A DNA stretch of 46,469 bases, taken from an uncultured Pseudomonadota bacterium. GTDB taxonomy: Bacteria; Pseudomonadota; Gammaproteobacteria; Steroidobacterales; Steroidobacteraceae. Made by a program: the position numbers and the translations under genes. The notes beneath the pieces are model-generated. The model was not told where the DNA came from. It saw nothing but the letters and a program-made list of their open reading frames with translations, and made no database searches. This document shows, one piece after another, positions 2 to 35,543 of the stretch. Within the stretch, counting starts at the first letter, position 1. Every line of letters begins with the position of its first letter. Location: positions 1 through 46,469 of the forward strand of contig CAIOHZ010000040.1 in assembly GCA_903858165.1 (NCBI GenBank), given 5' to 3'.

Positions 2-208
2 GAGGTGGCTCTGCGTCAGGAGCGGCGCGCGCGTTTGCCGGACAAGGTAGGCAAGCCGTGGACGCCTGCCGAAGATGCGGAGCTGGTACGCGCGTTCGAT
101 GCCGGCGAGCCCTTGGCCGTTATCGCTGCCCGGCTCTCGCGGACGCGTGCTGGCATCCGCGCGCGATTGGAACGGCACGGACGCAGCGCCCCGCGCGGCA
201 CGCCCTAG
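2..208 (+). CDS. C-terminal part of a protein ending in a Myb/GcrA-like helix-turn-helix
   Basis: The frame is open to the left edge, so this is probably the 3' end of a gene that starts outside the window; a GTG at 5 could also start it. About 40 residues before the TAG stop have the look of a small Myb/SANT or GcrA-like helix-turn-helix: a Trp in a PWTPAED motif, an acidic/aliphatic first helix, then IAARLSRTRAGIRARL as a possible recognition helix, and a basic tail. Short domains of this kind occur as C-terminal appendages of varied proteins, so the parent protein cannot be named. It runs convergently towards hemL with 26 bases between them. Coding looks likely; function unknown. Confidence 0.5.
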   Translation, partial: EVALRQERRARLPDKVGKPWTPAEDAELVRAFDAGEPLAVIAARLSRTRAGIRARLERHGRSAPRGTP

Positions 209-234
209 TAGGGCCGTCGGGCTGTCTTCCCGAC

Positions 235-1536
235 TCAGCAGCGACGGAAAGCGGTGTGGGCGGCGCGGAAGGTGGCTTCCATGGTGGTGTCGTCATGCGC
301 GGCAGAAATGAACCCTGCCTCGTACGCTGAAGGCGCTAGATACACACCAGCGTCGAGCATGCCGTGGAAGAAGCGCTTGAAGCGTGCTACATCGCACCGT
401 TGCACGTCCGCAAAGGAAGTGACGCCAGGCTGGTCCGTGAAGTACAGGCCGAACATGCCCGGTACCTGCGTGGTCACGAAGGGTACGCCGGCGGCCTTGG
501 CTTCCGCCTCCAGTCCGGCGCAGAGCTGCGCAGTCAACGCTTGCAGTCGCGCATGGAAGCCGGGGATGCTTATGCCTTCCAGCGTGGCGAGGCCTGCCGC
601 CATGGCCACCGGGTTACCGCTAAGGGTGCCCGCTTGGTACACGGGGCCCAGCGGCGAGAGGCGTTCCATAATCTCGCGGCGGCCACCGAAGGCGCCTACC
701 GGCATGCCGCCACCAATCACCTTGCCGAGCGTGGTGAGGTCCGGGCGGATGCCGAAGAGCTCCTGCGCACCGCCGCGGGCCACCCGAAAGCCGGTCATTA
801 CTTCGTCGAAGATGAGCACGGCGCCATGGCGCGTGCATTCCTCGCGCAGCGCTTCTAAAAAGCCTGGTGCCGGCAGTACGCAGTTCATGTTGCCGGCGAC
901 CGGTTCCACGATGACGGCGGCAATGGAGTCGCCGTCGCTGGCGAACAACGCGCGCAAGGCGGCGGTGTCGTTATAGGCCAGTGTCAAAGTGTGTTGTGCA
1001 AGGTCGGCAGGCACACCGGGCGAAGTGGGCACACCGAGCGTCAAGGCGCCGGAGCCAGCCTTCACCAGCAAGGAATCCGAATGGCCGTGATAGCAGCCTT
1101 CGAACTTCAGGATGCGGTCGCGGCCGGTGAAGCCACGGGCAAGGCGCAGTGCGCTCATGGTGGCTTCCGTGCCGCTCGAGCAGAAACGCACCAGGTCCAT
1201 GGAGGGCACGCAGGCGAGCACGGCGCGAGCGAGGGTGGTTTCAGCGGCGGTGGGGGCGCCGAAGGAAAGTCCATTGATGGCCGTTTCCTGCACCGCACGG
1301 ATGACCGAGGGGTACGCATGCCCAAGAATCATGGGCCCCCAGGACCCGACGTAATCTACATAGCGGTCGCCATCTTCGCCCCACACATAAGGGCCGGCTG
1401 CCTTGGCGAAGAACACCGGGTGTCCGCCCACGCTGCGGAATGCTCGCACCGGTGAATTCACGCCACCCGGGATGACTTCAGCGGCAGCGGCGAACAAGGC
1501 CGAGGAACGGGGGCGAACATGCAAGGGGTCGGTCAT
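235..1536 (-). CDS. hemL: glutamate-1-semialdehyde 2,1-aminomutase
   Basis: Isomerises glutamate-1-semialdehyde to 5-aminolevulinate in the cytoplasm, the second step of the C5 route to haem and other tetrapyrroles. The 433-residue product is close to the usual 425-430. It opens with the family block [12 protein letters not shown] (residues 22-33), has [15 protein letters not shown] near 120-134, the CYHGHSD motif near 148, FDEVMTGFR near 243, and the PLP-binding lysine in [13 protein letters not shown] at Lys272. The ATG start is preceded by a weak GGAAA. The gene follows cpdA on the same strand after 91 bases, which hold a candidate -10 box, so it may have its own promoter. Identification is firm. 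Confidence 0.97.
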
Positions 1537-32257: not shown

Positions 32258-33307
32258 TTAGGGTTGCCCGCTGGCATTGGTGAGTGTCGCGCGCGCTGCA
32301 TAGCGCCGCGCAATAATCGCCCCGGCCACCAGCTGCGCTTGGTGGTAAGCAATCATGGGTAGGACCAGTAGTCCTAGCGCCGGGTAGGTACCGAACAGCG
32401 CCTTGGCCATGGGCATGCCGTTGGCGAGGCTCTTCTGGCTGCCGCAAAGCAGCAGGGCTGCTGCGTCCTCCGGAACCAAGCCTAGGCGCTTGGTTGCAGC
32501 ATGCAGGCCGAACAGCATGATACCGAGCAACCCGGTTACGGCCACCAGCAGGACCACTAGCGAACTTGCTGAGGTCTGGTGCAGAACGTCTGCGGCAATG
32601 GCATCACAAAACGCCACATACATGACGAGCAGGACGGCGCCGCGCTCGACGAAGCGTACGAGGCGAGGGGCAGCTCGCAGGCTGGGGAGCAGCCAGCGCT
32701 GCAGTAGATGGCCTGCTGCGAAAGGGAGCAGCACGGTTCCCAGCAAAGAGCGGACGGCGTCGACCAAGGAGAGCTGCACGCCGCTGGTTGCTGCCAGCAG
32801 GCTGACCAGCAGGGGTGTTATGAAGATGCCTAAGAGTCCCGATAGGGTGGCGTTGAAAATGGCGGCAGGCACGTTGCCGCGAGCGATGCCGACCAACGTT
32901 ACCGCGGAGGCGATGGTGGAGGGGAGGGCGCAAAGATAGAAAAAGCCCAGTGCCAGCGGCATGGGCAGGGTGCCGCGCAACAGCCAGAACCCGCCGAGGC
33001 CGAGGGCTGGAAAGACCAGATACGTGGCCGCCTGGATGAGCAGATGCAGACGGACATTGCGGCTGCCCGCGTGCAGGCGCTCGCGCGACACCTGTGCGCC
33101 ATGTAGTCCGAACACCAGCGCGATGCCCACGCTGGTGATGTGGCCGAGACCGAGTGCACCGTGGCTACCGCCCCAAGGAGCGGTGAAGCAGGCCAGTACC
33201 ATGGCACCGAGGATGCCGAGCAGGAAACTGTCGAGCCAAGCCGGCCACCTTGGCCACACCGACCAGCGTGACCTAGCGGAGTTGCCGGGTCCTGGCGACG
33301 CCGTCAT
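32258..33307 (-). CDS. YfeH-type bile acid:sodium symporter family transporter
   Basis: A 349-residue inner-membrane protein with about nine to ten hydrophobic segments. The YfeH-like branch of the bile acid:Na+ symporter superfamily is indicated by [48 protein letters not shown] (the crossover region) and [20 protein letters not shown]. The transported substrate of this branch is not established. The ATG overlaps the rpiA stop by four bases (ATGA), so it is translated with rpiA. Confidence 0.88.
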
Positions 33308-33972
33308 GCGTGGCGCGGGACCAAGGTTTCTACGCCGGAGTCGCGGCCGATGAGCAGCACGTCCGCGCCACGCCGCGAGAACAGCCCGTTAGTGACCACG
33401 CCGGCCACATGGTCGAGTGCCGACTCCAGCGCCACCGGGTCGGTGATTGCCATGTTGTGCACGTCGAGGATGCACTTGCCATTGTCTGTCGTGACGCCTT
33501 CGCGCAGTACGGGCTGGCCGCCGAGCGCGACGATTTTCCGCGCCACGTAGGAGCGCGCCATCGGGATCACCTCGACCGGCAGCGGGAAGCGGCCCAACAC
33601 ATCGACTAGTTTGCTGTCGTCCATGATGCAGACGAACTTGCGCGAGGCAGCGGCGACGATTTTTTCGCGAGTGAGAGCGGCGCCGCCACCCTTGATGAGG
33701 GCGCCGTGGCGGGTCGCTTCGTCCGCGCCGTCGACGTATAGGGAGAGGTCGCCGGTGGAGTTGAGGTCCATGACTTCGATGCCGGCGGCGCGCAACAGGC
33801 GGGTGCTCGCCTCACTGCTCGAGACGGCACCGCGGATGTCATGGCGGCGACTGGCGAGTGCGGCGATGAAATGGTTCACGGTGGAGCCCGTGCCCACACC
33901 AATGATCATGCCGTCTTCCACATAGCGCATGGCCGCATCCGCGGCGAGCTTCTTGCGGTTGTCTGCTGACAT
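33304..33972 (-). CDS. rpiA: ribose-5-phosphate isomerase A
   Basis: Interconverts ribose-5-phosphate and ribulose-5-phosphate. The 222-residue protein has [11 protein letters not shown] near the start, SSEAST, the catalytic YVDGADEA region, [19 protein letters not shown] and [15 protein letters not shown] at the end. AGGATC precedes the ATG at normal distance. It is co-transcribed with the YfeH-like transporter gene. Its upstream side holds a terminator that ends transcription from the Lys/Ala mini-gene. Confidence 0.97.
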
Positions 33973-34037
33973 TGCGCGGATCCTTAGTTTTGCAGGGTTT
34001 AGTCACTGCCATGATACCGGCAGCGGAGGGCAGAAAC

Positions 34038-34065
34038 GACGAGGCCCGCTTGCGCGGGCCTCGTC
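34038..34065 (-). terminator. strong hairpin terminator after the Lys/Ala mini-gene
   Basis: GACGAGGCCCGC and GCGGGCCTCGTC form a 12-bp perfect stem around a GCAA tetraloop on the minus strand, followed by GTTTCT. It lies 64 bases past the mini-gene stop and just before rpiA. Confidence 0.7.
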
Positions 34066-34129
34066 TTAGAAGTGCGAAGGGGAGGTGGAGTCCTTGCGGT
34101 TTCCGCCGCCCTTCTGCGGCTTCGAAGAA

Positions 34130-34198
34130 TTACTTCTTCTTAGCAGCAGCCTTCTTCTTCGCTACCTTCTTCTTCGCGGCTTTCTTTTTAGCAGCCAT
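34130..34198 (-). CDS. 22-residue Lys/Ala-rich histone-tail-like protein
   Basis: ATG at 34198, TAA at 34132-34130. The peptide contains only Met, Ala, Lys and one Val, built of AAKKK/VAKKK repeats, like the C-terminal tails of bacterial histone H1-like and HupB-type proteins. Support that it is a real gene: a textbook AAGGAG Shine-Dalgarno about 9 bases before the ATG, a good promoter with an A-tract upstream (34231-34258), and its own strong terminator. Lysine is coded by mixed AAA/AAG and alanine by mixed codons, so this is not simple DNA repeat slippage. Nucleic-acid or nucleoid binding is inferred from charge alone. It stands as a one-gene unit between EVE and rpiA. Confidence 0.82.
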   Translation of the reverse strand: MAAKKKAAKKKVAKKKAAAKKK

Positions 34199-34230
34199 GA
34201 TAAAACTCCTTACAGGTTAGTCCGAGGTCG

Positions 34231-34258
34231 AGTATATACACAGTATTAATAAAAACAA
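34231..34258 (-). promoter_or_regulatory. promoter of the Lys/Ala mini-gene
   Basis: TTGTTT (34258-34253), 16-base spacer, TATACT (34236-34231) on the minus strand, in a very AT-rich stretch. A nine-A run followed by TTT lies about 20 bases upstream of the -35, suggestive of an UP element or curved DNA. The predicted leader is about 25 bases and contains AAGGAG. The rest of the gap to the EVE gene (34259-34351) shows no gene. Confidence 0.68.
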
Positions 34259-34351
34259 GCAACCCCCCTTGCAAATTTTTTTTTGCTTGTTCCAAAGGGC
34301 AATGCCGCTAACTGCTTCAGGACTCCGCGTGCACTGCCAAGCGGCAACGCT

Positions 34352-34840
34352 TTAGCGCTTGGCTTTACTGCCTTTGGCTTCCAGTGAGAGCACGGCTTGC
34401 CATTCCGCTGCGGTAATCGGCGTCACCGACAAGCGGTTGCCTCGGCGCAGGATGAGCATTTCGTTGAGTGCAGCAAGTGGCTTGTTTTTAAGGGTTTCCA
34501 GCAACACTGGCGTGGCAAGTGGACGCATCAGTTGGACGTTGACCACGTACCAGCGCGGGTCGTCCGGTTTGCTGGCGACGTCTTGATGGTCGTGTCCCGG
34601 GATGAATTGTGTGGGATCCGGATAGCCGGCCTTCACTACTTCCAACACACCGTAGATGCCCGGTGCATCGCAGTTCGAGTGATAAAGAAATGCCTGGTCG
34701 CCGACCCGCATTTGGTCGCGCAACATGTTCCGCGCTTGGTAGTTGCGCACGCCATCCCACATCGTGGTGCGCTTCGGGGCCTTCATGAAGTCCGCGAGTC
34801 CGAATACCGAGGGTTCCGATTTCATCAGCCAGTGGTTCAT
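34352..34840 (-). CDS. EVE-domain protein (modified-nucleotide-binding fold)
   Basis: A 162-residue single-domain protein. The start NHWLMKSEPSVFGLADF and W-DGVRNYQARNML block are the hallmark of EVE domains (Thy28-like, PUA-related), followed by VGDQAFLYHSNCDAPGIYGVLEV and the C-terminal hydrophobic segment around NEMLILRRGNRLSVTPIT. EVE domains read modified bases in DNA or RNA; single-domain versions next to housekeeping RNA genes are thought to act on RNA. ATG 34840 has AGGAAG at good distance. It lies 61 bases after fau in the zapA-6S-fau-EVE series. Confidence 0.93.
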   Translation of the reverse strand: MNHWLMKSEPSVFGLADFMKAPKRTTMWDGVRNYQARNMLRDQMRVGDQAFLYHSNCDAPGIYGVLEVVKAGYPDPTQFIPGHDHQDVASKPDDPRWYVVNVQLMRPLATPVLLETLKNKPLAALNEMLILRRGNRLSVTPITAAEWQAVLSLEAKGSKAKR

Positions 34841-34901
34841 GAAGTTCTTCCTGAAAGTGCCTGAATCAACGTGATTTTCTGTAGCGCTACGGTCGTGCGA
34901 G

Positions 34902-35543
34902 TTAGAAGCGGCGCAGACCGTGGGCAGTGAGTACGGCGTCGAGTGGCATGTCCCATGCGCGCCGCGGAATGCACGGTAGCTGCTGGCATGCATGCGCCAA
35001 ACCCAGACGCCACGGGCGACGGCCTGCGGTACCGGCGAGTGCACGGTCGTAGTAGCCACCCCCCATGCCGAGTCGGTGGCCGGCAGCATCGAAGGCCACA
35101 AGTGGCATGGCGATGAGATCGAGGTCACGCGCGCGCCGCCATTGGTAGCGTGGAGTCGCAGGTTCCTCGATGCCGAGCGCGTTGCGCCGCATGGCGTTCG
35201 GTGTGAGTGGGCGACGGCCTTGGGGTGTCGCTGGCGGGCGCGGCAAGGCGGCGAAGCGCAGCAAGCGGAGACGGCGATGGGCGATGACCGGTAGATAGAC
35301 CGTGCAACCGCGTTGCCAAGCGAGGCGCATGAGTTCGGCCGTGGGGAACTCTTCGCGTAGTGGCGCATAGAACGCGACGTGTTGCCCGGCGCGCAAGCGT
35401 AGGCATTGCGCGAAAGCTGCGGCCGCCGCTTTTGCTTCGGCGCGCCGCACCAGGGGCGGCAGGCCACGCCGGGCCTGGCGGGCGGCGCGGCGCAGCGCTT
35501 GCAACGCGGCCGGTGTCGTTGACGGGTGGGAGTGGTTCTTCAT
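34902..35543 (-). CDS. fau: 5-formyltetrahydrofolate cyclo-ligase
   Basis: Converts 5-formyltetrahydrofolate to 5,10-methenyltetrahydrofolate with ATP (also called ygfA). The 213-residue protein is Arg-rich with the N-terminal basic helix ALRRAARQARRGLP, the substrate region FYAPLREEFPTAEL, MPLVAFDAAGHRLGMGGGYYDRAL (the ATP-binding signature) and a normal C-terminus. GGAG precedes the ATG. Its place directly after 6S RNA is conserved in proteobacteria; in E. coli the two are co-transcribed. A terminator between 6S RNA and fau here may limit read-through. Confidence 0.93.
   Translation of the reverse strand: MKNHSHPSTTPAALQALRRAARQARRGLPPLVRRAEAKAAAAAFAQCLRLRAGQHVAFYAPLREEFPTAELMRLAWQRGCTVYLPVIAHRRLRLLRFAALPRPPATPQGRRPLTPNAMRRNALGIEEPATPRYQWRRARDLDLIAMPLVAFDAAGHRLGMGGGYYDRALAGTAGRRPWRLGLAHACQQLPCIPRRAWDMPLDAVLTAHGLRRF

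Follow-up and report, generated by a model that had tools for sequence, protein, structure and literature searches.

The window, a stretch of 46,469 nucleotides from an uncultured bacterium of the Steroidobacteraceae, carries a stand-alone gene under selection that encodes a peptide of only 22 residues, MAAKKKAAKKKVAKKKAAAKKK (minus strand, 34130 to 34198, stop included). Judged by its place and its flanks, this micro-gene is a miniaturised orthologue of the gene for a histone H1-like protein at the site between an EVE-domain gene and rpiA. The preliminary description had read here a peptide of Ala, Lys and a single Val, preceded by a textbook Shine-Dalgarno sequence. Both points were borne out: after Met, the ORF specifies A, K and one V exclusively, and AGGAG (minus strand, 34210 to 34206), of which GGAG is conserved, lies 7 nt 5' of the ATG. 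On the same strand, the ORF is preceded by the EVE-domain gene (34352 to 34840, with its stop at 34352; PF01878, E 1.1e-49) and followed by rpiA (33304 to 33972, with its ATG at 33972; PF06026, E 7.1e-57). The peptide matched no family in Pfam and NCBIfam, nor did it match the curated H1-like models PF07382, NF038052 and NF038053. Two known RNA elements were also located in the window, a 6S RNA (RF00013; 35647 to 35835, minus strand), which precedes the 5-FCL gene of this gene row, and an SAH riboswitch (RF01057; 3918 to 3986, minus strand).

The gene is widespread in the family. A 271-base region matched 183 of 200 family genomes at E 0.001, a count that is inflated by low complexity. When the family loci were read, a complete micro-ORF was found in 75 of 86 genomes, all of 14 to 30 aa and together spanning 24 of the 25 genera met. 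Three further ORFs were truncated at contig ends, and eight genomes yielded none. One of these (G007, 74% complete) gave a weak partial match, and the other seven gave no match to an upstream model that covers promoter, 5'UTR and start (81 positions, sequence only) and was built on 33 short loci and one long one. Three of the eight are at least 90% complete (G066, 91%; G158, 90%; G180, 92%), and the seven without an upstream-model match, out of 18 genomes in that search, do not enter the length tally. Each short ORF adjoins rpiA, the EVE gene or the 5-FCL gene, with strand and order kept, and rpiA, where present, lies 64 to 366 nt beyond it. The recurrence between EVE and rpiA for which the preliminary description proposed to search was thus found, in the 75 genomes above. 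No locus among those read combined a frameshifted peptide with a preserved RNA structure. Three MAGs titled Janthinobacterium lividum, Candidatus Planktophila lacus and Klebsiella pneumoniae (L032, L033, and L074) carry the rpiA locus of the family, and their titles look wrong.

Codon comparison showed selection on the encoded peptide. Across 134 within-genus pairs of equal length, which are not independent of each other, pS was 0.345 and pN was 0.0135, giving a pN/pS of 0.04. In one genus (g23, 11 loci of 21 aa), only silent changes were seen (pN/pS of 0); the ratio was 0.03 in the window's own genus (4 loci), 0.07 in g7 (12 loci), 0.17 in g4 (one pair), and 0.23 in g2 (two pairs). Across genera, unaligned ORFs of the same length gave 0.10 to 0.40 (lengths 16, 21, 26, 15, and 22) and 0 for the 17-mers. 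Changes of length among the short ORFs are in frame. All of 71 family peptides end in KKK and none contains Glu, though Lys to Glu takes one base; this absence is partly filtered, as the ORF finder allows at most 7% of residues outside K, A, R, T, S, G, V, P, and Q. No family locus was lost to this filter (three were contig-end cuts and one was gene-less). In the 68 distinct short ORFs, Lys (783) and Ala (394) fill most of the 1286 codons after the start Met, Pro occurs once, and each peptide has 9 to 17 basic residues on a chain without hydrophobic bulk. The earlier claim of an independent gene was upheld by the family-wide recurrence of ORF, start, stop, and place and by the mostly silent changes within genera.

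Outside the family, the same locus holds much longer genes. The upstream model matched 183 of 246 genomes of the order and 12 of 369 genomes of the class, 5 of the latter lying in the order. Within the order but outside the family, 34 genomes picked among the matches listed were read; after two contig-end ORFs and one locus with a run of N in the ORF had been set apart, 29 of 31 complete ORFs encoded 83 to 195 aa, rich in K, R, A, T, V, and S and of H1-like composition. The other two are short (G287, 22 aa; G331, 24 aa). Among the seven class matches outside the order, six led to K/R-rich ORFs of 74 to 198 aa located 142 to 583 nt downstream of EVE, three of them with rpiA within reach, and the seventh genome was without the gene. 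No length from 31 to 73 aa occurred among 112 complete ORFs. When seven long orthologues were searched with the HC2 model, one matched, at 32.9 bits and under the cut-off of 40; NCBIfam matches were far below cut-off. Long K-rich ORFs (104 to 157 aa) also stand about 1.7 kb before rpiA at four loci in other Gammaproteobacteria (L071, L073, L077, and L087).

The short gene lies among the same neighbours as the long forms, shares their promoter and 5'UTR, and in many cases also has their terminator core. The orthology rests on place and flanks, because low complexity makes homology of the coding sequences unprovable. The peptide had been likened to the DNA-binding tail of an H1-like protein cut free. 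The relation to H1-like proteins held in place, promoter, and 5'UTR, but the long orthologues consist of low-complexity tail over their whole length; it would thus be a whole repeat protein that was shortened rather than a tail that was released. Shortening is the likelier direction, because the forms outside the order are long. In an RpiA tree of 113 rows, from which those four loci were left out, at least six changes between short and long were counted, three of them forced by starred branches. This tree splits the family, placing long f5 rows and a class row among the short ones, and it is too weak at depth to fix the number or the direction of the shortenings.

Further copies and possible replacements were also considered. 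A 34-nt match in another contig of the window's genome (L002, contig C149) proved to be the Lys-rich tail of a SET-domain protein (173 to 820, minus strand; PF00856, E 4.1e-26) and not a paralogue. The H1-like lysine-rich tail of that protein begins KKKAAKKKAGKKKASKKK and runs on, and the protein is a possible lysine methyltransferase with a tail of the micro-peptide kind. As for another H1-like gene in the role of a replacement, PF07382 had 0 matches in the window's genome and matched 3 of 19 family genomes (within 30 genomes searched). A profile of 10 long forms found a match in 1 of 13 genomes but failed to pick up the known long forms in 3 of the 4 long-form genomes among them, which makes it too insensitive to count. 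A search of plasmids gave 19 records at 60 to 80% identity, and among the matches listed (five) only the rpiA part was covered.

The control region is conserved upstream of both length classes. In 34 aligned loci, a -35-like element, TTGCTTG (34256 to 34262, minus strand), has its TTG and a T invariant and the rest nearly so, and the -10 region, TGTATATACT (34231 to 34240, minus strand), is invariant or nearly so, a long-form locus included. The presumed 5'UTR starts with an element, CGGACTAACC (34215 to 34224, minus strand), that is conserved in the short forms; the long forms carry a CGG(T/G)TAACCCGACA-like sequence at this point. A strict consensus scan of 33300 to 35200 flagged neither promoter nor terminator, so the standing of both rests on conservation. 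The "good promoter" first described here was accordingly retained for its conserved elements, but not as a consensus match. The upstream A-tract described with it is present in the window gene but is not general across the family, since a run of A6 or longer was found at 4 of 4 own-genus loci versus 4 of 67 other family loci. In several long-form families (L136, L151, and L145), the element that follows the -10 box is nearly palindromic (CGGGTACCCG, CGGTTAAC), as would be expected of an operator.

Downstream of the ORF, a terminator-like stem-loop (34038 to 34065, minus strand) has arms at 34038 to 34049 and 34054 to 34065 (plus-strand positions), which form 12 perfect base pairs around a 4-base loop. 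The 12-bp stem was therefore as previously described, and its pairing is kept: RNAalifold recovered it from an alignment of 41 loci, with both-sided changes at 6 pairs. Its standing as a terminator is qualified by a weak U-run (GTTTCT) and by the silent strict scan. Many forms, short and long, share the stem core, GTGCCCGC-loop-GCGGGCAC; 15 ORFs gave no fitting stem in the search, some from a contig end or a longer loop. In the 41-locus alignment, the 5' pairings were weak and free of both-sided changes.

Between stop codon and stem lies a 3'UTR spacer of 64 nt (34066 to 34129, minus strand), which had been called structured, with a possible RNA role for the transcript. The predicted transcript (34225 to 34045) folds better than shuffled sequences (z of -2.79), as does the 65-nt spacer of the window gene (z of -3.31), but a 55-nt piece of it was not significant (z of -1.33, with 21 of 200 shuffles as good). 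The folding set comprised 73 distinct short-form and 26 distinct long-form spacers. Of the distinct short-form spacers, 58 measure 35 nt or more, and 51 of these had z below -2 (median, -3.64), versus 2 of 58 regions beyond the terminator and, on the upstream side, 3 of 73; for long-form spacers, the count was 13 of 23. The hairpin is not alignable over genera; covariation was read in chosen sets of relatives. In a set of eight, 8 of 14 pairs changed on both sides and 0 of 500 shuffles scored as high, while on one of five measures, that of further pair types, 39 of 500 shuffles reached the observed value. The spacer hairpin is probably selected in many lineages, as folding scores and covariation suggest.

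These data also bear on whether the transcript is mainly regulatory, acting through its 3' hairpin region with the peptide as a second product. The excess of folded spacers and the covariation in the set of eight fit such a dual-function RNA. Against it, a set of 11 relatives had no pair with both-sided change, both sets were chosen by eye, and the structure of the set of eight was derived from the same alignment. The 41-locus alignment contained no conserved hairpin other than the terminator, and no Rfam family matched the transcript above threshold (permissive matches on the stem region, CRISPR-DR28 at E 0.011 and ar14 at E 0.66, were sub-threshold and taken as chance). In addition, 15 of the 73 distinct spacers leave no room for the hairpin and the peptide is nonetheless kept, so the hairpin is not required wherever the peptide is kept. 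A known case, VcdRP, resembles the micro-gene in its short transcript, tiny ORF (29-aa VcdP), and structured RNA, as set out in passages of PMC8672173, but a conserved target-pairing stretch was not identified in the predicted transcript. We regard a mainly regulatory RNA as unlikely.

We favour, as the probable reading, a miniaturised H1-like orthologue that acts as an electrostatic binder of polyanions. Transcribed and translated in the cell, the stand-alone micro-gene would make a very short polycation of 14 to 30 residues, 9 to 17 of them basic. Such a peptide would most likely bind polyanions (DNA, RNA, or polyphosphate) diffusely and electrostatically, in effect as an encoded counter-ion that screens or condenses them, and the 3' hairpin and terminator may stabilise or tune its small mRNA. 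PMC9239181 reports DNA binding in vitro for KPAA-repeat peptides and an association of AlgP with polyphosphate granules. The C-terminal domain of AlgP and PhaF (Pseudomonas) is likewise a polyanion-binding polycation of H1-tail-like composition (PMC9239181, in part). However, AlgP has an N-terminal part and Pro-containing KPAA repeats; the micro-peptide has no N-terminal domain and no KPAA repeats, in line with the single Pro in 68 distinct ORFs. The Hc2/BpH1-type H1-like proteins (PF07382, NF038053) resemble the micro-peptide in being stand-alone, lysine-rich, and repeat-built, and the short ORFs share the lysine/alanine-rich composition of Hc2. In the part of PMC2848022 that treats Hc2-like proteins, size varies with the repeats from 149 to 237 aa, compared with 14 to 30 aa and no family-model match for the micro-peptide.

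The same size and charge would suit a peptide that works on the ribosome or rRNA. Thx is a very short basic ribosome-bound peptide of this kind, and the GC-rich stretch after the -10 box would be appropriate for growth-rate control. The long orthologues, however, resemble H1 tails and not Thx, and we consider a ribosomal role improbable. A leader peptide, on whose Lys codons the ribosome would stall to attenuate rpiA, is suggested by the succession of a Lys-rich short ORF, a terminator, and rpiA 64 to 366 nt on. This is very improbable, given orthologues of 74 to 198 aa in the same place, a stop-to-terminator distance that in the short forms lies anywhere between about 20 and 80 nt, and the fact that rpiA is not a lysine gene. 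A cationic toxin or antimicrobial peptide would also be short and cationic, but hydrophobic residues limited to Ala and Val and a single conserved chromosomal place make it scarcely credible. A decaying remnant of a longer H1-like gene, as the ORF is far shorter than its orthologues, can practically be dismissed: amino-acid changes are rare relative to silent changes, and 24 genera have retained the start, the Shine-Dalgarno sequence, the promoter, and the stem.

For the preferred reading of a polyanion-binding micro-orthologue, the evolutionary course remains tentative. It is plausible, though just short of probable in our estimation, that throughout this family an H1-like chromatin protein of about 75 to 200 residues gave way to a peptide of 14 to 30 residues, with the control region and place of the gene kept, that one or two further shortenings took place in another family (22 and 24 aa), and that the 3' hairpin of the transcript is a second selected element. 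H1-like proteins as such are known. As far as these tools show, a version cut to 14 to 30 residues across a family, with relatives that are long at the same locus, is new, and no description of the peptide was found in openly licensed PMC papers. Genes of this size and simplicity are readily overlooked in annotation and discarded by low-complexity filters, and the micro-gene is an example for which coding selection is supported across 24 genera. If the family did undergo this replacement, the peptide would count as one of the smallest conserved chromatin or polyanion-binding proteins, and a few KKKAA units would suffice. The two length classes at one locus, 14 to 30 versus 74 to 198 aa, provide a ready-made natural series with which to ask what length an H1-like tail needs and what its ligand is.
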